Source: Streptomyces kanamyceticus (lineage in GTDB: Bacteria > Actinomycetota > Actinomycetes > Streptomycetales > Streptomycetaceae). From it: a DNA stretch of 64,000 nt. The notes under the pieces were generated by a model that saw only the letters and a list, made by a program, of their open reading frames with translations, searched no databases and was not told the DNA's origin. Below are positions 10,728 through 64,000 of this stretch, piece by piece. How positions within the stretch are numbered: position 1 is the stretch's first letter; each line of letters opens with the position of its first letter. The translations under genes and the position numbers were made by a program. Location: assembly GCF_008704495.1 (NCBI RefSeq), contig NZ_CP023699.1:10069898-10133897 (forward strand). The letters are read 5' to 3'.

Positions 10728-10760
10728 AGTTCACCTCAATCGATCAACAGAACAAAGGGG

Positions 10761-13084: not shown

Positions 13085-13131
13085 CGGTAGGCGCCATCCT
13101 TCTTTTGTGCCCTGTATGCCGGTATGCCCGT

Positions 13132-37836: not shown

Positions 37837-38354
37837 GAGGGATCACCACCCACCAGCAGGACGGAGCTCGCGCCACACCGCCAGCGAAACGGACTCCGCC
37901 CCGCCACTACCCGCAGAGTCCGCGCCCACCAGCACAGATCACCAGAGGCGACCGGAAAACCACTAAACGGACACCCCAAGCCGCCCGCGGGCGACCCCTC
38001 ACCGGCCACTACCGACCGAACCAGAACCAAACCCGACCCACACCCCAACTACCCCTCAAAACAAGGAGATTGAAAGCAGCTTCTTACTGAGCGTTCGGCG
38101 CGGTGACTAGTGTTTGGTTCCACGCCAGTTGGGGTGATTTCACCGATGGCGCGGCGTCAAAGACCAAGCTAGTCCTGCTCGGTGTGGAGACGGGCCTCAA
38201 GGTCGGTGGCCCACCCAAGGGCAGTGTTGGACGATGACAGGCGTGGCCTTATGGCAGTGATCTCGATCGCTGGCCGACGACTTGCCGGGTAGTGAGTGAG
38301 CTGGCGTGGCAGTTGTCCTGGAGACAGTGCGTAGCGCGGATAAGGGGGAGTGTT
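37837..38354. other. Long G/T-skewed leader of the DUF6192-racP operon
   Basis: Between 37846 and 38075 the plus strand is almost all A and C, i.e. the minus strand upstream of DUF6192 is rich in G and T with repeated GGTGG/GTGGG blocks. It looks like a structured or strand-asymmetric non-coding region rather than a gene. The part after 38090 precedes the nSTAND gene. Confidence 0.4.
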
Positions 38355-39980
38355 GTGGGGCGCCGAGAGAAGGCACTTGATCCTACTGAAGGGCCGGTTC
38401 AGCGTCTGGCCCATGATCTGCGGCAACTGAGGGACGAGGCGGGTAGCCCTGCGTACCGCGAGCTGGCCCACCGAACTGGCTATTCGGCGCCGACTTTGTC
38501 CGAGGCGGCGGCAGGCCGGAAGTTTCCCTCCTTGCCCGTCACGTTGGCGTACGTCCGCGCCTGCGGCGGCGATGAGGAGGAGTGGGCTCAGCGGTGGCAA
38601 GTAGCGGCCGACGCCCACGCGCAACAGAGCGCTCATGGCGATGACGAAGCGGCGCCGTACCGAGGACTCTCCCGCTACGGAACGGGTGATCAGCACCTCT
38701 TCTTCGGGCGCCAGCCGGAGGTCGAGCGTCTGGCACGCATGATCGCCCAGCACCGCTTCGTTGCCCTCGTCGGTGCTTCGGGCAGTGGTAAGTCGTCGCT
38801 GTTGCGAGCGGGACTTGCGCCTGAACTTCAGCGCAGCGCCCGTGACTTCCAGCTGAGGGGCATTAGCATCTGTACCCCTGGGCCGGATCCGGTACATGCA
38901 CTGCGTTCCCTCCTTGCTCTGCCTGGCCAGGACGGCAAGGAAACTATCCTGCTGGTGGACCAGTTCGAAGAACTCTTCACGCTCTGTCAGGACCCACAAG
39001 AGCGTGGCGAGTTCATTGAGCTGCTACTGACCGCGCAGGCGGAGAAGAGTTCCCTGCGTGTCCTGATCGCAGTGCGAGCCGACTTCTACGGGCATTGCGC
39101 CGACCACCAAGCCTTGGCCAACGCGATGAACAAGGCTCATTTGCTGATCTCAGCGATGTCGCCGGACCGGTTGCGCGAGGCGATTATCAAACCGGCACAC
39201 CAGGCTGGACTCCTTGTGGAACGTTCAGTGACCGATCAGATCCTCGAAGAAGTCACAAGCGAGCCCGGTGGCCTGCCGCTGATGTCGCACACACTGCTCG
39301 AGGTCTGGCGTCGCCGCACCGGCAGGCGCCTGACTCTCGCTGCCTATGAGGCGATTGGCGGTATTCGTGGAGCGGTCGCGCACACCGCTGAGAGTGTGTT
39401 CACCGGCCTCACCCCGGAGCAGGCGGGCGCCGCTCGCGCCATGCTGCTCAGGCTGGTTTCTCCAGGAGAGGGGTCTCTGGACACCCGACGCCCGGTCCCC
39501 CTAGCCGAGATCCAAGTCAGTGAAGCACAAGCCGCGGTCCTGGAGCAGCTCATCTTGGCCCGGTTGTTGACGATCGATGACGACAGGGTTGAGCTCGCCC
39601 ACGAGGCGTTGATTTCCGCATGGCCGCGGCTCAACGGATGGGTGGATGAAGAGCGTGAACGGCTGCACCTTCACCGACGTCTGACTGAGGCGGCGCGTAC
39701 ATGGAAAATCCTCGGGGAGGACTCTGGGGCTTTGTACCGAGGCGTACTCTTGAGCGTGGCGCGTACGGAATTCACGACGTCCAAGAACGAACCGACGGGA
39801 ACACTCAACGATCTCGAAGCTGAGTTCCTCACGGCCAGCATCGCGGAGCATGACCGTGTAGCCGTGGAAGTGGCGCGCACCGCTCGGCGCATGCAGATCC
39901 TGATGAACTTGATCATGGTGCTCGTAGCGAGCGGGCTCAGCATCTGGGTGATGTGGTTCTTCAGCCGTGAGCACCCGTGA
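38355..39980 (+). CDS. HTH-nSTAND1 ATPase without WD40 repeats
   Basis: 541 residues. An XRE-like HTH (residues ~18-60: RELAHRTGYSAPTLSEAAAG) is followed by a STAND NTPase: Walker A GASGSGKSS (~140), Walker B ILLVDQFEELF (~198), and sensor region VLIAVRADFYGHC. A membrane segment (MNLIMVLVASGLSIWVMWFF) ends the protein. Relatives usually continue into C-terminal WD40 repeats that sense a trigger; here the stop comes right after the membrane segment. GTG 38355 is preferred because GGGGGA lies just upstream and family starts match. Confidence 0.78.
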   Translation: MGRREKALDPTEGPVQRLAHDLRQLRDEAGSPAYRELAHRTGYSAPTLSEAAAGRKFPSLPVTLAYVRACGGDEEEWAQRWQVAADAHAQQSAHGDDEAAPYRGLSRYGTGDQHLFFGRQPEVERLARMIAQHRFVALVGASGSGKSSLLRAGLAPELQRSARDFQLRGISICTPGPDPVHALRSLLALPGQDGKETILLVDQFEELFTLCQDPQERGEFIELLLTAQAEKSSLRVLIAVRADFYGHCADHQALANAMNKAHLLISAMSPDRLREAIIKPAHQAGLLVERSVTDQILEEVTSEPGGLPLMSHTLLEVWRRRTGRRLTLAAYEAIGGIRGAVAHTAESVFTGLTPEQAGAARAMLLRLVSPGEGSLDTRRPVPLAEIQVSEAQAAVLEQLILARLLTIDDDRVELAHEALISAWPRLNGWVDEERERLHLHRRLTEAARTWKILGEDSGALYRGVLLSVARTEFTTSKNEPTGTLNDLEAEFLTASIAEHDRVAVEVARTARRMQILMNLIMVLVASGLSIWVMWFFSREHP

Positions 39981-40226
39981 GAGTTACTCGATGAGAAGCC
40001 GTCCCGCTTCCTCGACTGTCCGGCACGTGGCTTGATTGTCTGCTCGTTTGCTCGTTGGTTGGACGTGGCTAAGACATCGTTGGATCTCGTGGAGAAGCTG
40101 CGGGAGAAGTTGAAGCACACGTGCGGCAGGTGCGGCCACGGTCTCGGGCCGCATGACAGACTTGATGCTTGCCGAACGGGGAAAATCTTTCGACCGACCA
40201 AACGCTGATCCGGCACCCTCTCCAGC

Positions 40227-41322
40227 ATGACCACGCAGTCCTTCATCCCTGGACTGGAACTTTCGCACCGCTTCTACCTCGAAGCCGTACGGCCTTTGCT
40301 GGACAAGGCCGCCCCGGGGGTTACGCACTCCGCCGCCCGCCTCGGTGGCGGCTCGGAAGTCCTCGGATTCGACACCGCCCGCTCCGCTGACCACGAGTGG
40401 GGACCCCGCCTACAGATCTTCCTGCGCTCGCAGGACGTCACACGCCACGGCACGAGGATCACAGCACTGCTCTCCGAAAGCTTGCCGAAAACCTTCCGCG
40501 GCTACCCGACGCACTTCGCCCCCATCGGCGAAGCAGGCATCCGGGTCATGCAGACAACTGAGGGACCAGTCCACCACCGAGTCGAAGTCACAGACCCAGG
40601 CGCCTGGTTCACCGGGCAACTGGGCTTCGACCCGCGTACCGACATCACCCGGGCGGACTGGCTGGCCACCCCCACTCAGCTCCTCGCCGAGGTCACTGCG
40701 GGTGCCGTCTTCCACGACGGACTCGGTCAACTCGCACCAGCCCGCGCCAACCTCGACTGGTACCCCCACGACCTCTGGCTCTACCTACTCGCCTGCCAGT
40801 GGCAGCGCGTCTCCCAGGAGGAAGCCTTCGTGGGCCGCTGCGGCGAAGTGGGCGACGAACTCGGCTCCGCTGTCGTCGCCCGCCCGCCTGGTACGCGATC
40901 TGATGCGGCTCTGCCTGCTCATGGAGTGCCGCTACCCGCCCTACAGCAAATGGCTCGGCAGCGCCTTCGCCCGCACTCCCCAGGCACCCGCCCTCACCCC
41001 GGTCCTCACTGCGGCCCTCACCGCTACCGACTGGCACACCCGCGAGCATCACTTGGCCCGCGCCTACGAGGCCGTCGCGGCCACACACAACCAGGTCGGC
41101 CTCACCGACCCTGTTGACCCCGCCACGCGGCCCTACCACACCAGACCATTCCAGGTCCTGCACGCCGGACGCTTCACCGCGGCGCTGAGCACCCGTATCA
41201 CCGACCCTGACATCAGCTCCCTGGCGACGATCGGCGCAGTCGACCAGTTCGTCGACAGCACGGATGTCCTCAGCCATCCGGAACTGACACGCGCCGCCAC
41301 CAACAGTCTGCTGTTCCCTTGA
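40227..41322 (+). pseudogene. DUF4037-like protein gene, frameshifted
   Basis: The first frame (from ATG 40227) carries FIPGLELSHRFYLEAVRPLL, GSEVLGFDTARSADHEWGPR (nucleotidyltransferase-like Asp motif) and YPHDLWLYLLACQWQRVSQE. After a one-base excess near 40880 the protein continues RLVRDLMRLCLLMECRYPPY, SKWLGSAFART and LSHPELTRAATNSLLFP. Together they make a ~364-residue DUF4037 protein, a family with a kanamycin-nucleotidyltransferase-like fold. A single indel separates it from an intact gene. Confidence 0.7.
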
Positions 41323-41361
41323 GACCTCCGTCGCAAAGCCACGCAGAGAGCGAAGCTGCGC

Positions 41362-41577
41362 GATCTAGCGGGTCAGCGGTGCGGGGGCAAGGCGGACGGT
41401 CCAGGGACGAAGCCTGATCCGTACTGGTCCGACCGGCGGGGAAGGTGGGGGTTTGGGTTCGCGCCAGTCGGCGACGGGTTTCGTCAGCCGACGGGTCATC
41501 AGCGCCATGGTGGTCCAGGCGAGATGAGCCTCGGCGTGCCGGGGGAGCTTTTCGTATTACGTTGCGGCCCGCGACGC
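41362..41577 (-). pseudogene. IS5-family transposase C-terminal remnant
   Basis: The minus strand reads YEKLPRHAEAHLAWTTMALM then TRRLTKPVADWREPKPPP, homologous to the C-terminus of the transposase at 35507-36420 (AHAEAHLAWTVISLTTARLA). Only the tail is present. Confidence 0.6.
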
Positions 41578-41852
41578 TCATGGCCCGGCAAGCTGCACGG
41601 GGACAAGGGCTACGACTACCGCCACCTGCGGCGATGACTCGCCTCTCGTGGCATCCGCCACCGCATCGCTTGCAAGGGAATCGATTCGTTCCAACGCCTG
41701 GGCCGGTATCGCCGGATGGTGGAACGGGCCGTCTCCTGGCTGGCCGGCTGCCGACGTCTGCACCGCCGCTACGAAGGCAAGCCGGAACGCCTTCTCGCCT
41801 TCACAGCCATCGCTGCACCCTCGTTTGGCGCCGCAGACTGGCCTGGCCAAGT
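41578..41852 (+). pseudogene. IS5-family transposase C-terminal remnant, second type
   Basis: The plus strand reads DKGYDYRHLRR, a stop, then LASRGIRHRIACKGIDSFQR and RMVERAVSWLAGCRRLHRRY, the second-Asp and Glu blocks of an IS5-family DDE domain. It abuts the remnant on the other strand, marking a junction of two broken elements. Confidence 0.65.
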
Positions 41853-42136
41853 GAAATGGCGTCTTAGCCAACCATGATCCGGAATTCAGCGATCCAGAGT
41901 GTGTAAGTAGCCTGCGTATGCCCTGGTCGCGCGCCTCGCCTGGCTTTTGCGCCACCTCAGGAGCGGCTGTCGAATCCGGCCATCGATGCCATAGATCGTT
42001 GACGCAGTTGAAATATTCACCTTGGATTACCTGTAGCAAAAAAAGATTCCGCAATTTCTCACCTTTGGTGAGGGCGCATGTTATTCGCGTTGCGCCATTG
42101 CGTGATCACCGACCGCGTGAATCGAAGAAGGAGAAA

Positions 42137-42520
42137 ATGATGCGTAGAGGAATTATCGCTGGAATAAGCTCCATCGCGCTCGCCGGTGGCGCGCTGCTCG
42201 GCGTCGCTCAGACAGCCACTGCGAGCGAGACGGGTGCTCAGGCCAGCTACCTGTGGCTCTACCAGCACGATAGCTACGGCGGCAGCAGCAAGAACTTCTC
42301 CGGTGACGACCGGTACCTCAGCGACACTTACTGGAATGGCACATCTAGCAAGGTTGACAACGGCGCCAGTTCGATGAAGAACCAGACCAGCCGTGACATT
42401 GTTCTGTGGCAGGATAACGGCTGCTCCGGCGACCAGTACTTCGCGAGGCCGAACTCCTCCGACAAGGACTTCAGCAACAACAACTTTGACAACAAGGCCA
42501 GCTGCGTGGACTTCCGCTAA
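42137..42520 (+). CDS. Secreted peptidase-inhibitor I36/crystallin-like protein
   Basis: 127 residues with AAGGAG before ATG 42137. A signal peptide (GIIAGISSIALAGGALLGVA, cleavage near TATAS/ET) is followed by a ~95-residue beta/gamma-crystallin-type domain: LYQHDSYGGSSKNFSGDDRY, SSKVDNGASSMKNQTSRDIV, CSGDQYFARPNSSDKDFSNN. Asn and Asp loops could bind Ca. Family I36 includes the Streptomyces metalloprotease inhibitor SMPI. It is followed by a lipoprotein and a second crystallin-like gene. Confidence 0.78.
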   Translation: MMRRGIIAGISSIALAGGALLGVAQTATASETGAQASYLWLYQHDSYGGSSKNFSGDDRYLSDTYWNGTSSKVDNGASSMKNQTSRDIVLWQDNGCSGDQYFARPNSSDKDFSNNNFDNKASCVDFR

Positions 42521-42606
42521 ATCGCGTGTCGCGGGTGATGCCGGGACCTTTTTCGGCACCACCCGCCCCTGCGAGGTCACCTGCTGGATCGGGTGCGAGG
42601 TAATTC

Positions 42607-43485
42607 ATGGAAAAGAGACACGCGACCCTGTCACTCGTATTCCTTATGCTGGCAGTGAGTTGCTCGGCCGAGACCTCCACTCACGCCGGGAGCGGGCAGG
42701 CGGAGGCTCCGAAGCCGACCAAGCAAGTGCTCAAACTGGTCTTGCCGTTCGACAAGTACGAGCTCACTCAGCAGGACTCCTACGCGGTAGCGGAAGCTCG
42801 CGACTTCCTCATCAGGGAGTGCATGAAGAAGCGTGGCTACGAATGGAATATTCTGCATTACCCGTCGCGCGTGGACGAGATAAAGAACCGTCGCCGATAT
42901 GGTGTCGTTGAGATTCAGGTGGCGCGAGACTTCGGCTACCATGTGAACTCGGCGATCCTGTCCGGGGAAACCGACGTCCCACGTCAGCATGACGAGCGAG
43001 AAAAACGTCTCGGCGGTGACGGAATAAAGGCCGCATACAGCGAGAAGAGTGGTTGCGGATACAAGGCTAATAGTATTCTGGATGAGGGTGGGGGGAGCGT
43101 CAACTATCACCTCTTCAATCGCCTTAGTTCTGAACTCCTCATCAAGGCGAAGAGGAATTCGGAAGTTGCTCGGGTTACCCGCAGATGGGCGAAGTGCATG
43201 CGTGGCCATGGATACACCTACACGACGCCAGGTGAAGCGATAGGCGACCCACGATGGTGGAAAAAGAAGTCGGACAAAGCTTCATCTGTGGAAAAGTCGG
43301 TGGCGGTCGCCGATGTTCAATGCAAGAGTCAGGAAAAACTGGTTGAGGCGTTGTTTGAGGCTGAGGCGAGGTTACAGGAGCAGGCGATCAAGCGACATGG
43401 TGCGTACTTCAGTAAGCTCTCGGCTGCGCAGGTCAAGTACCTAGGCCGTGTCAACGAAGTGATCAAGGTGAAGGGTGCGCCGTAA
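42607..43485 (+). CDS. Putative lipoprotein, 292 aa
   Basis: MEKRHATLSLVFLMLAVSC is a lipoprotein signal peptide with lipobox LAVSC. The mature protein begins SAETSTHAGSGQAEAPKPTK and has conserved-looking blocks with Cys and Trp (RECMKKRGYEWN, RRWAKCMRGHGYTYTTPGEA, WWKKKS). I do not recognise the family, though such Cys-containing repeats (xxCMxxxGY) recur in actinobacterial exported proteins. It lies 86 bases after the I36 gene. Lower GC than neighbours hints at recent transfer. Confidence 0.65.
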   Translation: MEKRHATLSLVFLMLAVSCSAETSTHAGSGQAEAPKPTKQVLKLVLPFDKYELTQQDSYAVAEARDFLIRECMKKRGYEWNILHYPSRVDEIKNRRRYGVVEIQVARDFGYHVNSAILSGETDVPRQHDEREKRLGGDGIKAAYSEKSGCGYKANSILDEGGGSVNYHLFNRLSSELLIKAKRNSEVARVTRRWAKCMRGHGYTYTTPGEAIGDPRWWKKKSDKASSVEKSVAVADVQCKSQEKLVEALFEAEARLQEQAIKRHGAYFSKLSAAQVKYLGRVNEVIKVKGAP

Positions 43486-43598
43486 TACGCCCCACGCAGC
43501 GGGCCCCGCTTAGGTCGGTAGCGCGATAGCTGAATAGAAGAATTGGATACTATTCGTTCAACGCCACCCCGACATCTGCAGAGATAAGGAGGATTAGC

Positions 43599-43973
43599 GT
43601 GAGATGTGCGATAGGCTCACTCGCTGTTATACTCTTGACCAGTATGCTATCGGTAGGAATTGCGGCGCCTTCCTTCGCTCATGAGGGCATAGAAGCGGGT
43701 GCACTTACCGTCTACAAGGACACTGGCTTCAGCGGAGGCTGGCATAGCTTCACTGGCAGTGACGGCAACCTTGAAGACAACAAGTGGAACGATGGCACTG
43801 GATCTGTCAACGACAGCATCAGCTCCTTGAAAAACACTTCCTCGCACACGGTCCTCCTCTGTACGGGGGCGGGGTACACCGGTCCGTTCATCACAGTGCG
43901 CCCTGGCCAGGCAGTCAGCGAGGTAGTGAACGACGCGCTGCGAGAGCACATAAGCTCGATCAAGTTCCTCTAG
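43599..43973 (+). CDS. Second secreted crystallin/I36-like protein
   Basis: 124 residues from GTG 43599, preceded by AAGGAGGA. The signal peptide is LAVILLTSMLSVGIAAPSFA. The mature domain, LTVYKDTGFSGGWHSFTGSD, NKWNDGTGSVNDSISSLKNT and LCTGAGYTGPFITVRPGQAV, is a beta/gamma-crystallin-like fold related in pattern to the gene at 42137. The two bracket the lipoprotein gene, suggesting a joint extracellular role, which is inference. Confidence 0.7.
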   Translation: MRCAIGSLAVILLTSMLSVGIAAPSFAHEGIEAGALTVYKDTGFSGGWHSFTGSDGNLEDNKWNDGTGSVNDSISSLKNTSSHTVLLCTGAGYTGPFITVRPGQAVSEVVNDALREHISSIKFL

Positions 43974-44147
43974 CTAGGGGAATCCTCCCTACCCTTCTGC
44001 CTCTGGCTGAGCCGTGCCCGAGGCCCCAGAATGTCCTCAGCCGTGTACACCCCACATCCAGAAGACGCCCTGGCCGGTGAGGCTGCTACTCATCGGTTAG
44101 TGCCGACGGCCCGCTGGACTGCCGATTCACTCGACGGGATCATGCGA

Positions 44148-44549
44148 GATAGTTGCCAGATGGCGCGAGAGCTGGTTGAGAGACTGGTGCCGAACAGCCT
44201 GTGGGCACTGTTCCTACAGGTGGTTCCTGCTCCGCCGATACGTCCACAGGGCGGAGGGAGCCGGCGCCGACATGGAGATCGTGAAGTCTTGGCCGTGATC
44301 GTCTTTGCCGCCACATCAGGCTGCTCATGGAATCAACTGCCGTCCGCGTTAGGGCCGTCGGGGGTCACCGCGTTCCGCCGGTTCACCGAGTGGTCCGAAG
44401 CCCGCGTGTGGACCAAGCTCCATCGCTTGGTCCACGATGAGCTCGGTAGGGACGATGAACTGAACTGGTCGCGGTACGTCACGGACTCATGTCGGCTGCG
44501 CGCGAACCATGACTCGGCCGAGGAATCATCCCCCACTCTGACAAGGTGA
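44148..44549 (+). pseudogene. IS5-family transposase N-terminal remnant
   Basis: ELVERLVPNSLWALFLQVVP, IRPQGGG, AVIVFAATSGCSWNQLPSAL and TAFRRFTEWSEARVWTKLHR are the N-terminal blocks of an IS5-type transposase. It breaks off in RYVTDSCRLRANHDSAEESS before the second catalytic Asp, ending shortly before a strong hairpin. Confidence 0.65.
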
Positions 44550-44559
44550 TGCCGCGACG

Positions 44560-44599
44560 GCCCCGCCCATCTGCTCCCCCCGTGGCGGATGGGCGGGGC
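44560..44599. terminator. Hairpin, 15-bp stem with one mismatch
   Basis: GCCCCGCCCATCTGC pairs with GCGGATGGGCGGGGC around a 10-base loop. It lies after the transposase remnant and downstream (minus side) of the GtrA gene. Confidence 0.6.
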
Positions 44600-44827
44600 T
44601 CACTACCGCCTCTCCTAGACTCAGGCCAGCCGATCAGCCATGGGGCTTCGGCATCCGCGGTCGGGGCGTCGTCCACCCGGGTCGGCGGGCCGCCGGTGTT
44701 GTGGACCGCTCCAGGACCAGAACACCGAAGCGACGTCCTCACGCCCGATCCGCCGCCAGCGGCCCCCCGCCCACGTCCAGAAAGCATCCTGCGCCGAAGG
44801 AGACAACTGCCGCGCCCACCAGTTCAG

Positions 44828-45388
44828 TCAGTCACGCCGGGGTCGGCGAGCCAGAACAGCTGCCGGTGCGGATGGATAGGAATCGCTGACGCTTTGGGGC
44901 TGCTTGCGGAAAACCCATTTGCGATAGGCCCAGAAGCGGAAGCCACTGGCCAGCCCGAGACCGACAACATTCTTCGCAAGGTTGTCATCCAGAGGTGAGG
45001 TGTACCCGAAGCCGTAATGCGAAATGGCGAGCACGCCATTCTGAATGATCATGCCAATGCCGCTGAACAGTACAAAGAGCGCTGCCTCTCGGGCGTAGCG
45101 GTTCTTGTCGTGATGCCGGTAGGTCCAGTAGCGATTTCCGAGGTAATTAACGCCAATCGCCACCGCATTGGAGATAACTCCGGAGCGGACTGTTTGCAGG
45201 TGTAGAAAATGCAAACATAGGTTGAATACGGCCGTGTCCACCACCCAGCCGACCGCACCTACGGCGCCGAATCTTCCTGCCTCGCCACTGACTCGCTGTA
45301 GCTTCTGGCGCACTGCAACTAATCCGGTGCTGGTCAACGCGCGTACCTTATCCATATCGACGGTCTTGTGGGTCCATGCTATCTGCAC
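44828..45388 (-). CDS. GtrA-family membrane protein
   Basis: 186 residues with four membrane segments in the core: FGAVGAVGWVVDTAVFNLCL, RSGVISNAVAIGVNYLGNRY, ALFVLFSGIGMIIQNGVLAI and LAKNVVGLGLASGFRFWAYR, the last followed by KWVFRK, the standard GtrA ending. GtrA proteins flip polyprenyl-linked sugars or otherwise aid cell-surface polysaccharide synthesis. It is divergent from the lasso precursor gene, and two polytopic glycosyltransferases lie on the far side of that cluster. Confidence 0.82.
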   Translation of the reverse strand: MQIAWTHKTVDMDKVRALTSTGLVAVRQKLQRVSGEAGRFGAVGAVGWVVDTAVFNLCLHFLHLQTVRSGVISNAVAIGVNYLGNRYWTYRHHDKNRYAREAALFVLFSGIGMIIQNGVLAISHYGFGYTSPLDDNLAKNVVGLGLASGFRFWAYRKWVFRKQPQSVSDSYPSAPAAVLARRPRRD

Positions 45389-45527
45389 ACTTTAGCTCGC
45401 ACCACGAGGTTTCCGGCGTGGCTGCATCCTTCTCCGTAAAACTTTTGGCCAAAAACGACCTGGAACAAGTGATGTAGATGTTCGTAGGTTGAAGGTGATC
45501 ATTTCAGCCAAAGAAAGGGGATCCATC

Positions 45528-45662
45528 ATGGAATCACAGGTTCACGAGGTACTCCCTGAGCCGTACGAGCCGCCGGCGCTGATTGAAGTCGGCGAGTTCT
45601 CGGAGGACACGCTGGGCTTCGGCAGCAGGCCGCTGGACAGCTTCGGCCTCAATATCCGCTGA
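45528..45662 (+). CDS. Lasso peptide precursor, core GFGSRPLDSFGLNIR
   Basis: 44 residues. AAGGGG precedes ATG 45528. The leader, MESQVHEVLPEPYEPPALIE then VGEFSEDTL, has the YxxPxL motif read by the B1 protein and Thr at the penultimate leader position. The 15-residue core starts with Gly at 45615 and has Asp at position 8, giving an eight-residue macrolactam ring (GFGSRPLD) and tail SFGLNIR. Known relatives are chaxapeptin (GFGSKPLDSFGLNFF) and sungsanpin (GFGSKPIDSFGLSWL); this one has Arg5 and an Ile-Arg C-terminus. Cyclase, RRE and peptidase genes follow at once. Confidence 0.93.
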   Translation: MESQVHEVLPEPYEPPALIEVGEFSEDTLGFGSRPLDSFGLNIR

Positions 45663-45672
45663 GGCCAGACCG

Positions 45673-47505
45673 TTGCGCACTGGGTTCATAATCACGCCGG
45701 ACGTACCTGAAGCCGAGGCATTTCGCGACCTCCCCATCGGGGCGCCGCAGCTAATCCCTCACCTGTCGGGGCGCCCGTGGATCGTTGGCCACTGGGCGTC
45801 AGACGAGGTCGTTCGAGCGCAGGTGGGCCCAGTGCAGGTGGTGGTGATCGGGCACTGCCCGGTCACCACCGAACGGCTCGCCACACTGGCTGCCCGGGTA
45901 CGCACCCCGTCCGATGTAGACGACCTGGCGCGGGCACTGCCCGGCAGCTTCCACCTAGTTGTGTTGATTGATGATCAGCTCAGGGTTCAAGGCAGTGTCA
46001 CCGGCTTGCGCCGTGTCTCTTACGCCTATCTCCAAGGGATGCCCATTGCCGCCGATCGCGCCGATGTGCTCGCCGACCTGACCGGGGCCGACGTGGACCA
46101 GGACATGCTCGCCACTCGAGCCGTCTGCGGAGGCATGCTGCCCTCCCCGCTACGCGACCACAGCATGTGGCGCGGTGTCTATACGGTGCCGCCCGACCAC
46201 TTCCTCCTCCTCAAACGGGACCGGACCGCGCGCGAAGTGTCCTGGTGGGGGCCGCCTGCCCCTGAGCTGTCGCTGGAACAAGGCGCTCCCACTGTGCGGG
46301 CGGCTCTGATCACTGCCACAGCCGACCGGCGCCCTCCCGAGGGCCGCCTCAGCGTGGACCTCTCGGGCGGAATGGACTCCACGTCGCTATGTTTCCTCGC
46401 CGCGCACCACGTTCCTGACCTGCTGACGTTTCGGTGGGGCGAAGCGGAAGAGGGCAATGACGACGCTCATTACGCCACTCATGCGGCACGATGCCTACCT
46501 CAAGCCGACCACCTTGTAATGCCGCAGGCCAAGCTGCCCGCCATCTTCACCGACCCTGCTGCTCCAGCCGATCCCGAGCAACCCTACTTGTTCAGCCGCA
46601 CCCTGGCCCGTACTCGGCACACCGCTCTGAACCTGGCCGCCCACGGCTCCCGGCAACACATCGCCGGACACGGTGCCGACGAACTCTTCTTCAAGTTTCC
46701 CGGGTACCTCCACCGGCTCCTGCTGAGGCACCCTCTTACTGGCCTCCGGCACCTGCGCGGGCACCTTGCAGTGAGTCGATGGCCCCTGTCCGCGACCGTG
46801 CGCGAACTGACACGAGGCGGCGACGTCGCCTCGTGGTGGCGCGCCCAGGCAGATGAGCTCGCTGCACCACTAGCTGATCGTTTCCCGCCTATCGGCTGGG
46901 GCTTCTCGCCTCTTCGCGCCCAACCGTGGGTTACAGATGAGGCGTTGGACGCCACTCGACGAACACTGCGACGCACCGCGGATCAGGTGCGGCCTTTTGC
47001 TGAAGACAGGGGACAGCACCAGTTCCTCCTGGCCTTGCGTACCACCGCGCCTGCCTACGCGCAGATGGGCCGTATATTCGCTGAATCCGGCGTTCGCCTT
47101 GAGATGCCCTACCTTGACGACCGCGTCGTTGAAGCCGCTCTAGCGGTGCAATTGCACGAACGCGTAACGCCTCTGCGTTACAAGCCACTTCTTGCCCAGG
47201 CCATGCAGGGTATTGCGCCGCCCGTAGTGTTGAACAGATCCACCAAGGGTGACTTCGCGGAAGACCTCCGCGTCGGCCGGCGTCGCAATCTTGCAGCCCT
47301 GCTGGAGGTGTTTGCTGAGTCGGAACTCGCCCGTCATGGCCTGATCGACACCGGCATGCTGCGCGGCGAGATCCTCGCACCTCAGGCAGACAACACCAAG
47401 AACATCGCCCTTGAACACCTTCTCGGCTGTGAAACCTGGTTCCGCACTGCCACAACTCGACACACAAGCTCCCGGAGAAACGATGTCCGTAATTCTGCCT
47501 CCTGA
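45673..47505 (+). CDS. Lasso peptide cyclase (asparagine-synthetase-like)
   Basis: 610 residues, the macrolactam synthetase that adenylates the core Asp8 and joins it to Gly1. The N-terminal glutaminase-like domain lacks the catalytic Cys, and the PP-loop ATP site is SGGMDSTS (residues 231-238), followed by GHGADELFFKFPGYLH and EMPYLDDRVVEAAL. A TTG start at 45673, seven bases after GAGG, fits; no ATG or GTG is available between the precursor stop and the first conserved residues. It overlaps the B1 gene by 23 bases. Confidence 0.9.
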   Translation: MRTGFIITPDVPEAEAFRDLPIGAPQLIPHLSGRPWIVGHWASDEVVRAQVGPVQVVVIGHCPVTTERLATLAARVRTPSDVDDLARALPGSFHLVVLIDDQLRVQGSVTGLRRVSYAYLQGMPIAADRADVLADLTGADVDQDMLATRAVCGGMLPSPLRDHSMWRGVYTVPPDHFLLLKRDRTAREVSWWGPPAPELSLEQGAPTVRAALITATADRRPPEGRLSVDLSGGMDSTSLCFLAAHHVPDLLTFRWGEAEEGNDDAHYATHAARCLPQADHLVMPQAKLPAIFTDPAAPADPEQPYLFSRTLARTRHTALNLAAHGSRQHIAGHGADELFFKFPGYLHRLLLRHPLTGLRHLRGHLAVSRWPLSATVRELTRGGDVASWWRAQADELAAPLADRFPPIGWGFSPLRAQPWVTDEALDATRRTLRRTADQVRPFAEDRGQHQFLLALRTTAPAYAQMGRIFAESGVRLEMPYLDDRVVEAALAVQLHERVTPLRYKPLLAQAMQGIAPPVVLNRSTKGDFAEDLRVGRRRNLAALLEVFAESELARHGLIDTGMLRGEILAPQADNTKNIALEHLLGCETWFRTATTRHTSSRRNDVRNSAS

Positions 47506-47746
47506 CGTTTCCACGGTCGACACGGAGGACGGAATGGTGCTGCTCAATCAGCGTACTGGTCGCTACTGGCAGCTCAACGCCAACGGAGCACAGACGCTGC
47601 GCCGCCTTCTTGACGGCTGCACCATCGAAGAGATCGCCTCTGGCATTGCTGCGCGGCACCAAATTGCCCCCGACCAGGTCCACAACGACATCACTCGGGT
47701 GATCGCACAATTACAGAAGGCCCACCTGTTGGAGGCCAGCCGGTGA
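47483..47746 (+). CDS. Lasso peptide B1 protein (PqqD-like RRE)
   Basis: 87 residues: DGMVLLNQRTGRYWQLNANG, AQTLRRLLDGCTIEEIASGI, VHNDITRVIAQLQKAHLLEA. This is the PqqD-fold RiPP recognition element that binds the leader's YxxP segment and hands the precursor to the B2 peptidase. GGAG precedes ATG 47483. Its stop overlaps the GTG of the next gene (GTGA). Confidence 0.9.
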   Translation: MSVILPPDVSTVDTEDGMVLLNQRTGRYWQLNANGAQTLRRLLDGCTIEEIASGIAARHQIAPDQVHNDITRVIAQLQKAHLLEASR

Positions 47747-48171
47747 GCATTCCCGCAGCGCTGCCTGAGCGTCCTCGCCTGCCATTTCGCCGCCGGATCG
47801 TGCCACTTCTGGTTGTCGCCCTTGCGCGCATACTCGCCAGGGCCCGTCCACACCGGCTCCGAAGAGTGATGGAGCTGGCGCGGCGTCGTGCCGCACCAGC
47901 CACCGCCGACCAAGCCCTCTCCGCCCGCCAAGCCGTAGTGGCAGTGAGCATGCGCTGCGCCGGAGAGGCATGCTTGCAGCGCTCGATAGCCGCCGCGCTC
48001 CTCTGCCGGACCAAAGGGTTCTGGCCCACTTGGTGCACTGGAGTGCGTACGAGCCCGTTCGCCGCCCATGCATGGATCGAAGCCGAGGGAGAACTCATCG
48101 GCGAGCCTTACCCACAGGGTCACTACCAGCCGATCCTCACCATCCCTGCCTGTCCAGCTTCCCACTCCTAA
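47743..48171 (+). CDS. Lasso peptide B2 leader peptidase
   Basis: 142 residues, transglutaminase-fold cysteine protease that removes the leader after Thr-Leu. Catalytic Cys77 is in GEACLQRSIA and His109 in AAHAWIEAEG; KGFWPTWCTGVR lies between, as in the family. It follows B1 with a 4-bp overlap. An ABC transporter (D gene) normally comes next in these clusters but is not present here; the next gene is on the other strand. Confidence 0.9.
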   Translation: MSIPAALPERPRLPFRRRIVPLLVVALARILARARPHRLRRVMELARRRAAPATADQALSARQAVVAVSMRCAGEACLQRSIAAALLCRTKGFWPTWCTGVRTSPFAAHAWIEAEGELIGEPYPQGHYQPILTIPACPASHS

Positions 48172-48202
48172 AGGGTCTGGCGTTGCGCCGTGGCGGACCC
48201 GT

Positions 48203-49723
48203 TTACGCCTGCCCGCACTTGCCGGGGCGGGCGTAGACGACGAGCTGAGCACCGCGTAATCTCGTCCGCTCACACACCTGGAAGTCGGCCGTGAGTACCC
48301 TCCGCTTCACCGCCTCTTGCCGGTCCAGATCGATCGGCTGGCCTGCGGGATCGGACAGCGCGAGGATCCGGTCCGAGGCCAGAATCTGCCGACGGATGCC
48401 AACTGCACTGAGCTCAGTGCCTTGCAAGGTGCGTGAGGCCGCAGGAGACTCAGCGAGCGCCAAGTCGTTCAGTCGCTGATATACCGACGAATGCGACATC
48501 AGCCACTCGCGACGCCGCGCCGGCATGAACAGCACTCCGTCCCCTTCACGGGCGTCGCGATCGACGGCCTCAGAGATGGCCACGACATCGTCCTTGCGGC
48601 TCTCCGGCATCCGCATGAGAAGCGACCACGGCAGCAGGATCGCCACTGCCGCGACGATCGTCAGACCAGCGACTCCAGCCCGCCAGGGCCGAGCGAGCCG
48701 TTGACAGCGCCTGATCGCCAGATCCAAACCAGCTCCCATGAGCAGCGCGAGCCCCGCCATGGTGTAGAGGACGTAGCGATCGACGTACCACGGCTTCACG
48801 AGAGACACCGTCATCAACAGGCCCGTTGGGATGGTTAGCAGGGTGGTCGCGAAGACAACCAGCGGGCGGTCTTGGGCATCGAGGGCTGCGGTCATCCGGC
48901 CACGACGAAGCATCCACGCAAGGAGCAGTCCGGCTCCGGAGACCGCAGCGAAGTGCCACCATTCGGTCAGGCTCGGGCGTCCCAGCCAACCCAGTTGCCG
49001 TTCTGACTGCCCAACGCTCGCCACAGCCAGCGGAAGCAACCCTCCAAGTACGCCTGCACTACACCTGGTCCACCGACGCCAGATCGGACGTGCCGTGCGC
49101 AGTAACCAGAGAGCGGCCCCGTGCGCGGCAAGTGTCAGCGCGGCGAACTCATGGAGCCACCCGGCCAGGACGAGGGCACCGGTGTACGGCCACCACCAAT
49201 GGCACTGCGGTTGGGCGAGGGCACGCACGAGGAAATAGGTCGCCCAGACGACAGCCGCGTACACCATGGCGTACGAGCGGCCCTCCTGGGCGTACTGCTG
49301 CACCATGGGCACCCCGGTGGACACCAGCCCGGCTAGGATCCCGACGCGAGGGCCACCCAGTCGTGCACCGAGCGCTGCTACTCCTGCAGCTGCCACCGCC
49401 GCTGCCACCACCGAGGGCAGCCTGAGGGCGAGGAGTCCGCCGTCCCAGATGCTGAAGACCGCGTGCATGACGAGGTAGTACAGGCCGTGCACGGCATCGA
49501 TGTGCCCGAGCAGAGCCCAGATGTCGCCCAGGGACCGATGTGCTACTTGGTAGGTGACGGACTCATCCCGCCACATGCTGTTCTGGCGTTCGATTCCCCA
49601 CAATCCCACGGCTAGAGCGGCCGCGAAGGGAAGGACGATCGGAGCCACACGCCGCAAGGTGCGGTGAACTGGCGGCGCGACGACGGCCTCGGTGCTGTCA
49701 GCGGAACACGAACTGCCGACCAT
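48203..49723 (-). CDS. Polytopic glycosyltransferase (GT39/ArnT-like)
   Basis: 506 residues with about ten membrane segments. The first external loop has MWRDESVTYQVAHRSLGDIW, including the Asp-Glu pair typical of GT-C mannosyl/arabinosyltransferases. Then come HGLYYLVMHAVFSIWDGGLL, VQQYAQEGRSYAMV and WYVDRYVLYTMAGLALLMGA. The soluble C-terminus holds VAISEAVDRDAREGDGVLFM. Such enzymes move a sugar from a polyprenyl-phosphate donor. A paralogue lies next to it in the same direction. A link to the lasso peptide is not indicated by the sequence. Confidence 0.78.
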   Translation of the reverse strand: MVGSSCSADSTEAVVAPPVHRTLRRVAPIVLPFAAALAVGLWGIERQNSMWRDESVTYQVAHRSLGDIWALLGHIDAVHGLYYLVMHAVFSIWDGGLLALRLPSVVAAAVAAAGVAALGARLGGPRVGILAGLVSTGVPMVQQYAQEGRSYAMVYAAVVWATYFLVRALAQPQCHWWWPYTGALVLAGWLHEFAALTLAAHGAALWLLRTARPIWRRWTRCSAGVLGGLLPLAVASVGQSERQLGWLGRPSLTEWWHFAAVSGAGLLLAWMLRRGRMTAALDAQDRPLVVFATTLLTIPTGLLMTVSLVKPWYVDRYVLYTMAGLALLMGAGLDLAIRRCQRLARPWRAGVAGLTIVAAVAILLPWSLLMRMPESRKDDVVAISEAVDRDAREGDGVLFMPARRREWLMSHSSVYQRLNDLALAESPAASRTLQGTELSAVGIRRQILASDRILALSDPAGQPIDLDRQEAVKRRVLTADFQVCERTRLRGAQLVVYARPGKCGQA

Positions 49724-49798
49724 CTGCTGGCTGATGATGTCCTCCCCGATCCGATGAACCTCTGCTGCTGCCGCGACTGGGCCGTGTGGGGCCGTCGG

Positions 49799-51145
49799 TC
49801 AGCACTTCCCATCACGGGCGTGCACCTCAATGCGGGCGGTCCGCAGTTCTCGGCTGCTGCATGTTGCAAACCACTGCTCCAACACGCGCGGTTTGGTTCT
49901 CTCACCCGCGGTTGACTCCGCCCCCTCACGCACTGGATCACGCAGCACCACGACGCGTGACACACGCAACATGCGGTGCCGAATTACTGCGGGAGACGCT
50001 TCAGTGCCATAGAGAGTGCGGGAGGTGCGAGGTGAGGCGGCCAGAGACAGGTCAATGAGCCCGAGCGATTCAGGTGTTCGCTGAAGCAGCCACACCCGCC
50101 GACTGCCAGGCAGAAAGAGCACCCCGTCGCCGGGGCTGGCCACCTGCGCCACTGCACGGGAGATGGCCGTGACATCGTCGACACGGCTGGCCGAGCTCCG
50201 CAGATGCGTCGCCACAGGTACCTCTACTGCCAAGACCGCGACGGCCACCGCTACTAGGAACACACCTCGGCGGCGACGCGGAACGCGCCACAGCACATCG
50301 ACTGCCGCTCCTGTCAGCAGGGCCAACCCGGTCTGGGCGTACAGCACATACCGATCGACATAGAGGGGCTTCACCGCGGATACCAGCAGGAGCATCGCGG
50401 GCGGTACGACCAGCAGGGGCAGGGCGAGCGACGGCAAACCGAGCGAGGCCGACCGCATGAGGTGCTTATGGGTGTTGAACCAGGTCACCAGCGTGGCACA
50501 CGCAAGTCCGACGACGGCCAGCAGCACGAACCCCGTCGCATCACCCGTGACGGATACCTCGATCCAAGCGACCTGCTGAGACTGCCGCATGCTCAACAGC
50601 ACCAGAGGCGTAGCGAGAGCTACAGAACAGCAGGAGGCTGCGATCCAGGCTCTGGCCACCATGCGCGGCACGGGGGCGACGAGCAGCGTCACGCCATGCG
50701 CGACCAAAGCCAGAACGGCGAACTCGTGCAACAGGATCGACAGTAAGGTCAACGCCGCGTAGGCCGCCCACGTGGCTGAGCGGGGACGTGCGCAGGCCTG
50801 TAAGAAGACCCATGTGGCGGCGACCACCAGCGCCGTCACCAGGGCGTAGGAACGGCCCTCCTGAGCGTAGCGCTGTACTGGGGGCAGAAGGGCGAACACG
50901 GCGCCCGCCACCAATCCGCACCTCGGGCCCGCAAGCCGCCGGCCAATGGCGGCAACACCGGCTGCGGTGCACGCCATGGCGATGACAGATGGCAGCCGGA
51001 GTGCGACGACGCCGCCCTCCCACAGGACGAATACGCCGTGCACCAGCAGGTAGTACAAGCCGTGAACGGCATCGGTGTGGCCCAACGTTGCCCACAGCAC
51101 GGGCAGCGGTCGGTGGGCCATGTCGTACGTGACGGCCTCGTCCAT
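49799..51145 (-). CDS. Second GT39/ArnT-like glycosyltransferase, 5' end unclear
   Basis: Paralogue of the preceding gene: MDEAVTYDMAHRPLPVLWAT, HGLYYLLVHGVFVLWEGGVV, VQRYAQEGRSYALVTALVVA, LYVDRYVLYAQTGLALLTGA. From ATG 51145 it has 448 residues but lacks the first membrane helix. The same frame stays open ~240 bases upstream and encodes RLDLVIPSVLTLCSGLWGIQ, homologous to the neighbour's first helix, yet contains no ATG, GTG or TTG. Either an unusual start or a 5' frameshift is involved. It is probably from tandem duplication. Confidence 0.7.
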   Translation of the reverse strand: MDEAVTYDMAHRPLPVLWATLGHTDAVHGLYYLLVHGVFVLWEGGVVALRLPSVIAMACTAAGVAAIGRRLAGPRCGLVAGAVFALLPPVQRYAQEGRSYALVTALVVAATWVFLQACARPRSATWAAYAALTLLSILLHEFAVLALVAHGVTLLVAPVPRMVARAWIAASCCSVALATPLVLLSMRQSQQVAWIEVSVTGDATGFVLLAVVGLACATLVTWFNTHKHLMRSASLGLPSLALPLLVVPPAMLLLVSAVKPLYVDRYVLYAQTGLALLTGAAVDVLWRVPRRRRGVFLVAVAVAVLAVEVPVATHLRSSASRVDDVTAISRAVAQVASPGDGVLFLPGSRRVWLLQRTPESLGLIDLSLAASPRTSRTLYGTEASPAVIRHRMLRVSRVVVLRDPVREGAESTAGERTKPRVLEQWFATCSSRELRTARIEVHARDGKC

Positions 51146-51842
51146 CCATAACGAACCCTGCCGCTGGATCCCCCACAGTCCGCTGCAGAGGGTCAGGACA
51201 GACGGGATGACGAGATCCAGTCGCCGTGCGATGCGGCCCTGCGGACGCGGCGCCGTCAGGCGGATGACCGGAGGCGATCCGGAGACAGGGCGGAACGACT
51301 GCGAGACAGGAATGGCGAACCAGCTTTCATCGGTGTCAGTCGATCTCGAGCTGACCCAACCAGCCCGTTCGTTGATGGGCTGCCCACCCGCAAACTGCCA
51401 ATCAATTCAGTTGGTCGGCTGCCCGGTAGCGATTCAGTTCGCATTCCGCCCCTGCGAGGCCGCTGGCCTGGGCCGCGGGAGAATCGATGACAGGGCGTGG
51501 GGAGGGGCCCTCCCGTGCACACCCCCACGGTGAATTGGCTGGTCGAGCGGGCGTACTTCAATGCCACCCACCGGCGTGACGGTGTGACGGAGCTGCAGTT
51601 CTGCAGTAGTGGGGCTGCTGTGGCCTGGTGTTCCGTTGGTGGGCTTGGGATTTCGGGCTGGGGCGGGTGTGCTGTGAGGGGCCGGGAACGGGCTTGGCAA
51701 GGGGTGTTCGGTTTGGTTGTTCGGGGTGGTGGTCTGGGGTTCTGTAGTTGGGTGGGATTGATCTTGGGTTTGTTGTCGATGGAATGGTGCGTCGAGAGGT
51801 AGCAGCCGGGGTGTAGTTGTGTGCGGTGCCCGTTGTTGCTGG
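51146..51842. other. Intergenic region, G/T-rich on the plus strand
   Basis: The first ~240 bases hold the apparent upstream coding extension of the glycosyltransferase. 51640-51840 is strongly G/T-rich on the plus strand (blocks such as GGTGTTCGGTTTGGTTGTTC). It lies just beyond the last gene of the Tn7-like operon, where a transposon end with TnsB-binding sites would be expected. I could not define repeats with confidence. Confidence 0.35.
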
Positions 51843-52796
51843 TCAGCGGCGTGTATGCGTGAGGTAGGTGGCCAGTGCGTCGCTGGTGGTGGGGGCGAAC
51901 CGGGAGAGTCCGAGGCGGTGCCCGATCGCGGTGAGGGCCTCGCTTGGACGCTGTGTCCGGTAGCGGGGGAGTGCGGCGAGGGCGCGGGCGAGGATGACGG
52001 TTTCGGGGTAGATCACGAGATCACGGGCCAAGAGCACGGCTGAAGCGTTTCCCACACGGTCCAAGTGCATGTTCAACACGCTCAGTTGGTTCAGCCGGTG
52101 GTGCCACCGTTCGGTCAGGTGCTGCTGCTGGTCGTACCAGCGGGTGGTGATCGCACGTGCCGTCATCCAGGCGCTTTTGCCGCGGGGGTGTCGTAGCAGC
52201 CGTCTATGGGAGTGGTGGGCCGTGACCAGTTCGGGCACGGTTTTGGTGTGGACCGGGATGTCGAGCCTGGGGTCGGGGGCTGCCTGGTGGTGGCGGGGGC
52301 AGACCAGTTGGTGCCAGGGCCGGTGGACCCATGCGGCCCCGGTCGTGCCCTGGCTGTGGCGCCGTGTGCACAGGGTGCAGGCGGCCACGGGCCGGTGCAG
52401 GGCGTCGAGAGGCTTCCAGTGCGCGGTCGGCCCGGGGCCGGGGCTGCCTGGATGAGGCAGCCAGGGCAGGGCGTGGGTGAGGTGAGCCATCGGGATGCGG
52501 CCCAGGATGGTGATGTGGTGGGCGGCTGCGGGGGAGAGGGCCAGTTCGGCTGTGGGCGGGGTGCCGTGTCCGTTCAGGGTGATGCCGCAGCCGTCGAGGA
52601 GTTGGGACAGCGTCAGTCGGTAGATCCCGGCGAGGCGCTTCAGGTAGGAGGCGGTCGCTTCGTACGGCAGGGGCCGTACCCGGAACACGCCCGCGGCCGG
52701 GGGCAGGATGTGGGCCCATGCCCCAGCTACGGGTGTGCTGCCTCGCGCAGTATCGGGCGCGGCCCTCCAAGGGGCTGCGAGAGCGGTCTGGTTCAC
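51843..52796 (-). CDS. TniQ-family transposition protein
   Basis: 317 residues. The TniQ start is RVRPLPYEATASYLKRLAGI, then a zinc finger CTLCTRRHSQG ... HQLVCPRHH, and helical C-terminal segments (WHHRLNQLSVLNMHLDRVGN, PSEALTAIGHRLGLSRFAP). TniQ/TnsD proteins choose or bridge the target in Tn7-like and Tn5053-like transposition. Its start overlaps the TnsC stop (ATGA), placing it last in the TnsA-B-C-TniQ operon. Confidence 0.82.
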   Translation of the reverse strand: MNQTALAAPWRAAPDTARGSTPVAGAWAHILPPAAGVFRVRPLPYEATASYLKRLAGIYRLTLSQLLDGCGITLNGHGTPPTAELALSPAAAHHITILGRIPMAHLTHALPWLPHPGSPGPGPTAHWKPLDALHRPVAACTLCTRRHSQGTTGAAWVHRPWHQLVCPRHHQAAPDPRLDIPVHTKTVPELVTAHHSHRRLLRHPRGKSAWMTARAITTRWYDQQQHLTERWHHRLNQLSVLNMHLDRVGNASAVLLARDLVIYPETVILARALAALPRYRTQRPSEALTAIGHRLGLSRFAPTTSDALATYLTHTRR

Positions 52797-53902
52797 CGGG
52801 AGCCGGATCTGGTCGGGACCCGGGGCCGGTAGTGCTGTTCGGCGAGGTGGTCCAGGCGGACGGCCTCGAGGGTGACCCTGGTAATGCGTTCGGTGCCGTC
52901 CAGCAGCGCGGCCAGGGCCGCTTGCTTCACCAGACGCGCCAGGGATCCGATCCGCCCGGCGGTGCGGGCGTGCAGGTACGGTGCCAGCCGCACCAGACTC
53001 CCGGACCGGTGGTGGCGTAGGTCGAGTGCGTTCTCCAGTGCCCGTACCAGGTCCTTGAACGGTTCGTGCTCACCCTCACGTGCGGGGAAGGAATCGCAGT
53101 CGACGAGGCTGGCGCGTGCGGCGAGCTGCTCCCCGCGTACCCCCGTGAACAACGGCGTGCTGGTGACGTCGATGCCCGCGTACACGAACGTCGCGCCGAT
53201 CCGCTCGGTGAGGTCTTTGAGGAGATCGGCGCTCTGGGCACCGGTGGTGGTGCGAGGGTTGAGTCGGTGGATCTCGTCGATCATCACCAGCCGCACACCC
53301 ACCTGCGTGTACGTGTGGCAAACGCTGTTGACGACCTGGGCCTGGGACATCCGGGCGGTGGCGGGGATGCCGAGGTAGCGGGCGAACTCCAGCGCGAGAG
53401 TCTTGGCACTGGCGGCGGGCGGCACCAGCACGTAGGCGACCGGGACCTGCCCGCCCGCGGCCGACTCGCCCTGGCGCCTCCTGCGGGCGAGGTGGCAGGC
53501 GCGTCCGACCTGGAGCAGCGCGGTGGTCTTCCCGGCCCCGGCGGGGCCGGTGACGATCAGGGACGGGCGTGCGGTGACCTGTTGGTGACGGCCCAGCAGC
53601 ATCAGGGCGCGTACCTGTGTGGCCAGCATGTCGATCGCCGGGGTGCGTACGGTGACGAACTGCGAGTGGTAGGCCAGGCGTTCGGCCAAGCTGCGCGCGG
53701 GCGCCCCGGGCCCAGGAGGAGTAACGACGGGTGTGGTGGCGAAGCGGGCGAACCCGTCCCACACCGTTACTGCCCCGGCCTGCGCCTGTCCATCGCCGTC
53801 CGCGACGTCCTCGGTGCTCACTGCAGAGTCCGCTGGCCGGTGCGCGGCCGATGTGGCACCGCTTATCGACGCCTCTCTCGTGTCCCTAGGGTTGTTCACC
53901 AC
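52793..53902 (-). CDS. TnsC/TniB-like AAA ATPase
   Basis: ~369 residues. Walker A GPAGAGKTT, Walker B RLVMIDEIHRLN, then DLLKDLTERIGATFVYAGID and a C-terminal RIGSLARLVKQAALAALLDG helix region. TnsC-type ATPases link the target-selection protein to the TnsAB transposase. GTG 53902 or 53899 overlaps the TnsB stop (TGGTGA); the longer frame to 53929 runs back into TnsB. Confidence 0.85.
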   Translation of the reverse strand: MVNNPRDTREASISGATSAAHRPADSAVSTEDVADGDGQAQAGAVTVWDGFARFATTPVVTPPGPGAPARSLAERLAYHSQFVTVRTPAIDMLATQVRALMLLGRHQQVTARPSLIVTGPAGAGKTTALLQVGRACHLARRRRQGESAAGGQVPVAYVLVPPAASAKTLALEFARYLGIPATARMSQAQVVNSVCHTYTQVGVRLVMIDEIHRLNPRTTTGAQSADLLKDLTERIGATFVYAGIDVTSTPLFTGVRGEQLAARASLVDCDSFPAREGEHEPFKDLVRALENALDLRHHRSGSLVRLAPYLHARTAGRIGSLARLVKQAALAALLDGTERITRVTLEAVRLDHLAEQHYRPRVPTRSGSR

Positions 53903-56175: not shown

Positions 56176-57130
56176 TCCCCACCCAGCATGTCGATCCCCG
56201 CTTCAGATCCACGTCCCGGGCCACCACCGGCAGGCACACCCACCAGCGATCCGCCATGCAACGGCTCATCGAGTCCCGTCACCAACTGCCCCGACCACAA
56301 GGCGTGATAGATGGCAGGCAAGACCTGCAGCGGATCACCCACCGACGCCGCCCCCTCGAACAGCGGCCGCGGCACGGCGAACGCCTCGGCCACCGCAGCC
56401 TGCAGCCCGGGTGTCCGCCGGTACCGGGGGTGGCGGTACCCGGCCAGCCACCGCAGATTCCCGGCCACCACCGCTGGCGGCGGCTCCAGCCGCCGGTACG
56501 CCCACCCCACCCGCGCACACGCCGCCTCCAGCACGACGCCTGCCCGCTGCGCCCGGGCCCCGCCGGAGGCCGGACCCGAGGGGCAGTCCGCGAACAGCCC
56601 GGTGCCGTCGGCGTACCGGGCGAACACTTGCGGCACCCACGAGTGCACCCGCCCATCCGTCTCATCCCGCCACACGAACCGAGCGGGCCGCCCCGCCAAG
56701 CCGGTCACTGCCGACTCCCGGTCCAGCAGCATCAGCTGCGTGCGCATTGCGGCCGACCCGTGCACCACATGCCGCCCGGTACTCGCCGACCACCACCAGC
56801 CCGGACCCCACGACGCTCCGGCACCACCGGGAACGCCGACACCGGCGCCAGTGCCTCGAACCGCACCGATGTGACCGCCTGCTCCCACGACAACTGCGTC
56901 ACTTGTCCGGCAGGACTGCTGAAAGCGACCTCCACGCCCGAGCCCCTCCCCAGCAGCACACCGGCCACCACACGTAACTCCGCGCCCTTCACGCCGGACA
57001 GCCAAGGGCGTACCCGGCCATGCACATCCCGCGAACACCGCCCGTCCCACTCAAAAAGGTGATTCTCAGCGGAAATGCGAACCGTGCGACGCCGCCTCCC
57101 GTACGGTCCGTACCGACCCGCGCCGGGCAC
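56172..57130 (-). pseudogene. TnsA-like endonuclease subunit, frameshifted
   Basis: The 5' frame reads ISAENHLFEWDGRCSRDVHG, VKGAELRVVAGVLLGRGSGV and VRFEALAPVSAFPVVPERR. Near 56830 it must shift by -1 to continue PGWWWSASTGRHVVHGSAAM, RPARFVWRDETDGRVHSWVP, FARYADGTGLFADCPSG and LRWLAGYRHPRYRRTPGL, the pattern of actinobacterial TnsA-like subunits that cut the other strand for clean excision. No X-XXY-YYZ heptamer is present, so this is either decay or a sequence error. Without TnsA such elements may transpose replicatively. Confidence 0.7.
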
Positions 57131-57244
57131 GTTCCCCGGCGTTATGGCCCCGCGCCACCACGCGATGCGACACAGCCCAGTGCACGCGACGGCGATCCCG
57201 CCCGCACCACGGCCGAGCCCTCAACGACCAGCAACGTCCGCTCC

Positions 57245-63954: not shown

Positions 63955-64000
63955 CACCCAAATTCGATATCCCAGCCCCGGGATATCGAATTTGGGTGTC
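63953..64000. terminator. Perfect palindrome, 21-bp arms, at window end
   Basis: The arms start GACACCCAAATTCGATATCC and close around a 6-base loop (AGCCCC). The right arm ends at the last base of the window, so the repeat could extend further. Position directly after a stop codon makes a transcription terminator the simplest reading; the arms are far more AT-rich than the surroundings. A replication or telomere-type structure is not excluded. Confidence 0.6.

Follow-up and report, generated by a model that had tools for sequence, protein, structure and literature searches.

Lasso peptides are made by an established biochemistry in which an RRE protein binds the leader of the precursor, the B2 peptidase cleaves it off and an ATP-dependent cyclase closes the ring. 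The closest described relative of the locus reported here is chaxapeptin, which is encoded by the cxp genes of Streptomyces leeuwenhoekii on pSLE2 (NZ_LN831789). Sungsanpin from Streptomyces sp. SNJ013, whose core sequence we took from PMC12427821, is the second described member of the family, and inhibition of the invasion of A549 (lung-cancer) cells is reported for both. A 2019 study (PMC6856326) reports that the heterologous hosts S. coelicolor and S. albus secrete chaxapeptin, which was detected in their supernatants even though no transporter is encoded in the cluster, and describes a two-component ABC transporter for the cluster of S. cinnamoneus. It also names the S. kanamyceticus protein WP_107099006 as homologous to the chaxapeptin precursor, in a cluster without an identifiable transporter.

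The window, by which we mean the whole 64 kb stretch of S. kanamyceticus DNA that was analysed, harbours a four-gene lasso cluster on the plus strand at positions 45528-48171, the coordinates given in an earlier note on this DNA. It comprises genes for a precursor, a cyclase, an RRE protein and a B2 peptidase, listed here together with the gene upstream:

44828..45388, minus strand: GtrA-family membrane protein (PF04138, E 3.6e-26), divergent from the precursor, cluster membership doubtful
45528..45662, plus strand: lasso precursor, 44 aa (leader 1-29, core 30-44; NF033521 leader model)
45615..45659, plus strand: predicted 15-residue core, ring Gly1-Asp8, tail residues 9-15 (core pattern)
45673..47505, plus strand: lasso cyclase (C), 610 aa, probable TTG start (PF00733, SGGMDS)
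47483..47746, plus strand: RRE / PqqD-like B1 protein, 87 aa (NF033530, PF05402)
47743..48171, plus strand: B2 leader peptidase, transglutaminase-like, 142 aa (NF033537, PF13471)

All four reading frames are open and the catalytic motifs are kept, and the genes appear intact, as had been claimed; they had also been described as overlapping, which holds for cyclase and RRE (23 nt) and for RRE and B2 (4 nt) but not for precursor and cyclase, which lie 10 nt apart. The precursor ORF encodes MESQVHEVLPEPYEPPALIEVGEFSEDTLGFGSRPLDSFGLNIR, confirming the proposed length of 44 residues. Against NF033521, the lasso leader model of NCBIfam, it reaches 35.5 bits (cut-off 19), and it shows the leader motif YxxPxLxxxGxxxxxTx published for Streptomyces, including Thr at -2; it matched no Pfam model. 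Across the 64 kb window the degenerate core pattern has a single match, and 100 shuffles gave none. In six precursors that we chose for alignment the stretch VGEFSEDTLG is unchanged, and the Thr-Leu/Gly boundary and the Asp are invariant; other members of the leader clade have VGEFNEDTLG instead.

The cyclase is recognised by Pfam as Asn_synthase (PF00733, E 3.6e-36) with an SGGMDS motif at residue 231, and falls under the cut-offs of NF033561 (237.6, cut-off 300) and NF033535 (32.6, cut-off 525). Its start is most likely TTG 45673, judging from the only in-frame ATG, GTG or TTG within 45640-45759 and from the alignment of the resulting product with residue 1 of the chaxapeptin cyclase. The RRE protein belongs to the PqqD family (PF05402) and scores 97.1 bits against NF033530 (cut-off 70); B2 scores 116.9 bits against NF033537 (cut-off 33), also matches PF13471 and contains the motifs CLQRS and HAWIE with their Cys and His. 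No relative of the cyclase was found in viral contigs.

The gene order A-C-B1-B2 is common to this cluster and to that of chaxapeptin on pSLE2, and neither includes a transporter. From precursor to B2 the junctions are a gap of 10 nt in the window against 7 nt on pSLE2, and overlaps of 23 against 17 nt and of 4 nt in both. Identity to the pSLE2 proteins amounts to 59% for the cyclase, 44% for the RRE protein (B1) and 71% for B2, and the two precursors are identical at 33 of 44 positions (21 of 29 in the leader, 12 of 15 in the core), with Asp8 common to both. pSLE2 was the sole match among 72,556 plasmid records, and its annotation calls the precursor a 'chaxapeptin family lasso peptide'. The systems differ in their setting, the chromosome end in S. 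kanamyceticus and a linear plasmid for chaxapeptin, and in the core, where Arg5 stands for Lys5 and Ile14-Arg15 for Phe14-Phe15, exactly the substitutions listed in the earlier note.

Sungsanpin shares 10 of 15 core residues with the window and has the same frame, GFGS-P-DSFGL, over 15 residues. The family frame that we use, GFGS[KR]P[LI]DSFGL with 15 residues and Asp8, is our own definition, drawn from the two described cores and the window core, and the window core conforms to it. An aromatic residue within the last two tail positions (Phe-Phe in chaxapeptin, Trp-Leu in sungsanpin) is absent here, where the tail ends in Ile-Arg; two described cores are too few to make this a defining trait.

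A 14-row cyclase tree, which compared chaxapeptin-type, ulleungdin-type, GYKGSIWDNFLMYNT-type and GFGSDHSD-type cyclases, the sungsanpin cyclase not being among its rows, places the window and pSLE2 as sisters (support 95/93). The GYKGSIWDNFLMYNT-type cluster stands next to this pair (90/91), and the ulleungdin-type and GFGSDHSD-type clusters lie outside that group. Ulleungdin-type clusters resemble the window in their leader end (VGEFSEDTLG or VGEFNEDTLG), in gene order and in a cyclase 57-58% identical to that of the window, but differ in their core, GFIGWGKDIFGHYGG, and in the separate branch of their cyclases (100/99). Six further loci (L008, L009, L011, L013, L014 and L015) have the same leader and related 15-residue cores with a GFG start and Asp8, for example GFGSDHSDVLGKQGW; none has an ABC ORF directly beside the core genes.

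Core frame, gene order, protein identities and cyclase tree together bear out the proposed chaxapeptin/sungsanpin type, and we are highly confident that the cluster is a S. kanamyceticus member of this family of class II lasso peptides whose product would be made by the established pathway. By analogy with that pathway, the RRE protein would bind the conserved leader and hand it to B2, which would cut after Leu29, with Thr at -2; the ATP-dependent cyclase would then activate Asp8 and link its side chain to the Gly1 amino group, enclosing the threaded tail. The peptide so formed would be a lasso of 15 residues that carries Arg5 and ends in Ile-Arg. For this predicted product, GFGSRPLDSFGLNIR with a Gly1-Asp8 ring, the calculated monoisotopic mass is 1616.8423 ([M+H]+ 1617.850, [M+2H]2+ 809.4284). 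The eight-residue ring from Gly1 and Asp8 had been predicted earlier, and this prediction is supported by Asp8 being the sole acidic residue of the core. The cut site and ring position are predicted from homology, so the ring might close elsewhere or the core be cut differently, giving another product; we consider this extremely unlikely given that single acidic residue and the boundary and Asp invariant across the six aligned precursors. Tandem MS of chaxapeptin is likewise reported to indicate its only Asp as the ring residue.

Returning to the predicted Gly1-Asp8 lasso, the letters of the core predict an altered plug and a basic tail, with a net charge at neutral pH of about +1 by our estimate, compared with 0 for chaxapeptin. 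With both aromatic tail residues gone, the threading might be heat-labile, and Arg15 might be trimmed, which would leave a calculated neutral mass of 1460.741, or might plug poorly.

A precursor search at E <= 0.01 matched 36 of 392 Streptomyces genomes; loci were retrieved for 30 of these, and in 29 (all except L036) the precursor could be read via the leader motif. Among those 29 readable precursors a GFGS[KR]P core appears only in the window's own genome. Across 36 loci, L036 included, the core pattern is confined to L001 and L007 (own genome), L006 (pSLE2) and a chance match in L005; the exact ulleungdin core is present in three loci, and a fourth has it with two extra residues. Another sample, which comprised 395 relatives and shared some genomes with the first, gave eight matches at E <= 1e-5, every one in a genome already in the first set, and a cyclase search at E <= 1e-150 matched 6 of 199 genomes, including the window's own. 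A scan of a species genome collection gave a single exact match to the core pattern, in Nitrosospira, which we reject as chance because a stop codon lies inside it. Its silence is otherwise no proof of absence, since the scan missed S. leeuwenhoekii, whose pSLE2 fits the pattern, and the collection may omit near relatives of the window genome.

The cluster is located in a terminal arm and stops about 16 kb short of the end of the chromosome. The last 48 bases of the window (63953-64000) are 92% identical to their reverse complement, as in a telomere-like hairpin, which fits the end of a linear chromosome; no copy of it at the other chromosome end was found among the 40 of 501 candidates scored. 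Several other gene sets share this region. At 51843-58648 on the minus strand lies what we label a Tn7-like set. It encodes one protein that just clears the Pfam cut-off for TniQ and another, TniQ-like, that falls short of it, together with an ATPase resembling TniB/TnsC and a TnsB-like integrase. The lasso cluster is followed immediately downstream, at 48203-51145 (minus strand), by two adjacent genes resembling PMT_2-type mannosyltransferases, which match NCBIfam MnslTaseMT1671 far under its cut-off and could form a cell-envelope glycosylation set with the GtrA gene. Two peptidase-inhibitor I36 genes lie upstream on the plus strand (41981-42520 and 43599-43973); on pSLE2 the chaxapeptin cluster is closely followed by an I36 gene as well, and the window I36 proteins are unmatched there at 1e-3. 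Further off, 7472-13965 (minus strand) holds an apparent terpene cluster with a methyltransferase and a terpene synthase of family 2, next to which P450-like, polyprenyl-synthase-like, FAD-oxidase-like and DPM-synthase-like genes were recognised by eye.

Such a location raises the question of whether the cluster is silent, a copy carried along in a mobile stretch of the arm and yielding no peptide. Its closeness to the contig end would suit that reading, as would the neighbouring fragment of an IS4/5-family transposase and the TniQ, TniB and TnsB-like genes, and our scan found no sigma-70-like promoter in 45350-48300. Streptomyces promoters are frequently missed by scans of this kind. Decayed genes, however, would hardly be expected to keep four open frames and their catalytic motifs while remaining 44-71% identical to those of a functioning cluster. 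The stretch VGEFSEDTLG is also unchanged in the six chosen precursors, other clade members having VGEFNEDTLG. We regard silence as unlikely, though it is the most serious of the alternatives considered here.

The route by which the peptide would leave the cell is a separate matter. We scanned for ABC-type ORFs of at least 150 codons with both a Walker A motif and an ABC signature in window positions 38000-57000, in the 26.6 kb of the pSLE2 locus (L006) and in 11 relative loci (L043-L053), the flanks of the latter being covered for about 8 kb per side where the contig allowed and for the ABC type only. Neither the window segment nor the pSLE2 locus contains such an ORF, and none lies directly beside the core genes in any of the 13 leader-clade loci, one of which (L045) ends about 0.35 kb past B2. 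At a distance of about 3.6 kb there are four ABC-type ORFs, of which L044 and L046 carry one each and L048 carries two; two of the four, in L044 and L048, look UvrA-like by their motifs. A looser scan added one ORF 5.5 kb away in L051. The B2 regular expression missed L045 and L052 (2 of 12 loci), in both of which tblastn did detect B2.

The scan did pick out an ABC ORF in the positive control, the second lasso cluster of the window's genome (L042), where it directly follows B2 on the opposite strand. This cluster (L042:6372-12027; genome 1061371-1067026) has a precursor ending in GEPLGAFYEGGFPPYEWYLGPS and a cyclase 38% identical to that of the window; its ABC-type ORF spans 938 codons. The genome has three places of the DHQ-synthase family: aroB, one best matching the solved cyclase 4p53, and one at 1.714 Mb. 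For the last, 300 aa of the frame found their best solved match in 2-deoxy-scyllo-inosose synthase, and aminotransferase-, dehydrogenase- and glycosyltransferase-like frames lie beside it (3 of 10 frames tested). Such a gene set is in keeping with 2-deoxystreptamine production but is no proof of kanamycin.

The ABC scans suggest that a missing ABC transporter is usual in the leader clade, S. cinnamoneus being the published exception. By analogy, the lasso peptide would leave through a general Streptomyces exporter, as the authors of PMC6856326 concluded for chaxapeptin in S. coelicolor and S. albus.

The neighbouring GtrA gene offers a rival in which that protein is a functional part of the cluster, serving export or self-protection in place of the missing ABC transporter. 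It lies immediately upstream in both chaxapeptin-type loci and, by tblastn at 1e-3, in none of the 11 other leader-clade loci. Yet it is divergent from the precursor in the window and codirectional on pSLE2, and the two copies (51.8-54% identical) do not pair in a 13-row GtrA tree, where the pSLE2 protein sits on a long branch of unsure placement. The window copy is nearer to those of other Streptomyces genomes, eleven of which share 53.5-69% identity with it, the pSLE2 copy reaching 51.8% in the same comparison. A search at 1e-20 matched GtrA in 198 of 199 Streptomyces genomes, among them the window's own, which has five GtrA-family places. On the strength of orientation, tree and near-universal occurrence we reject GtrA as a cluster member and keep the idea as a weak, very unlikely rival; the adjacency is more likely due to chance, or to a shared preference for mobile regions, than to a functional role. 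A broader scenario, in which the VGEFSEDTLG clade (chaxapeptin and ulleungdin) largely dispenses with its own ABC transporter in favour of housekeeping export and the chaxapeptin branch recruited a GtrA helper, is marginally less remote but still improbable.

The cluster had been put forward as probably new, and this needs qualification. Because the precursor search in this genome returned just one full match, beside a weak leader-only match in the second lasso cluster, WP_107099006 is almost certainly the precursor gene of the window, presumably letter for letter. The gene was thus almost certainly flagged in 2019 (PMC6856326). What stands is the probable novelty of the product: no published report of it was found in the article texts searched, and neither the exact core nor its first 13 or first 11 residues were found in the search of those texts, which would miss spaced or three-letter spelling. 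The earlier note was therefore right about a cluster that had, in all likelihood, already been pointed out; apart from the tail end and the export question, the locus is ordinary for its known family, and its activity is putative.

The value of the locus lies in those two features. It encodes a natural variant of a small lasso scaffold in which the predicted tail ends in Arg rather than in aromatic or aliphatic residues, and its product would reveal whether an Ile-Arg tail end can hold the thread. Since the cluster, like most of its sampled relatives, has no adjacent ABC transporter, it also makes the route by which lasso peptides exit the cell testable.
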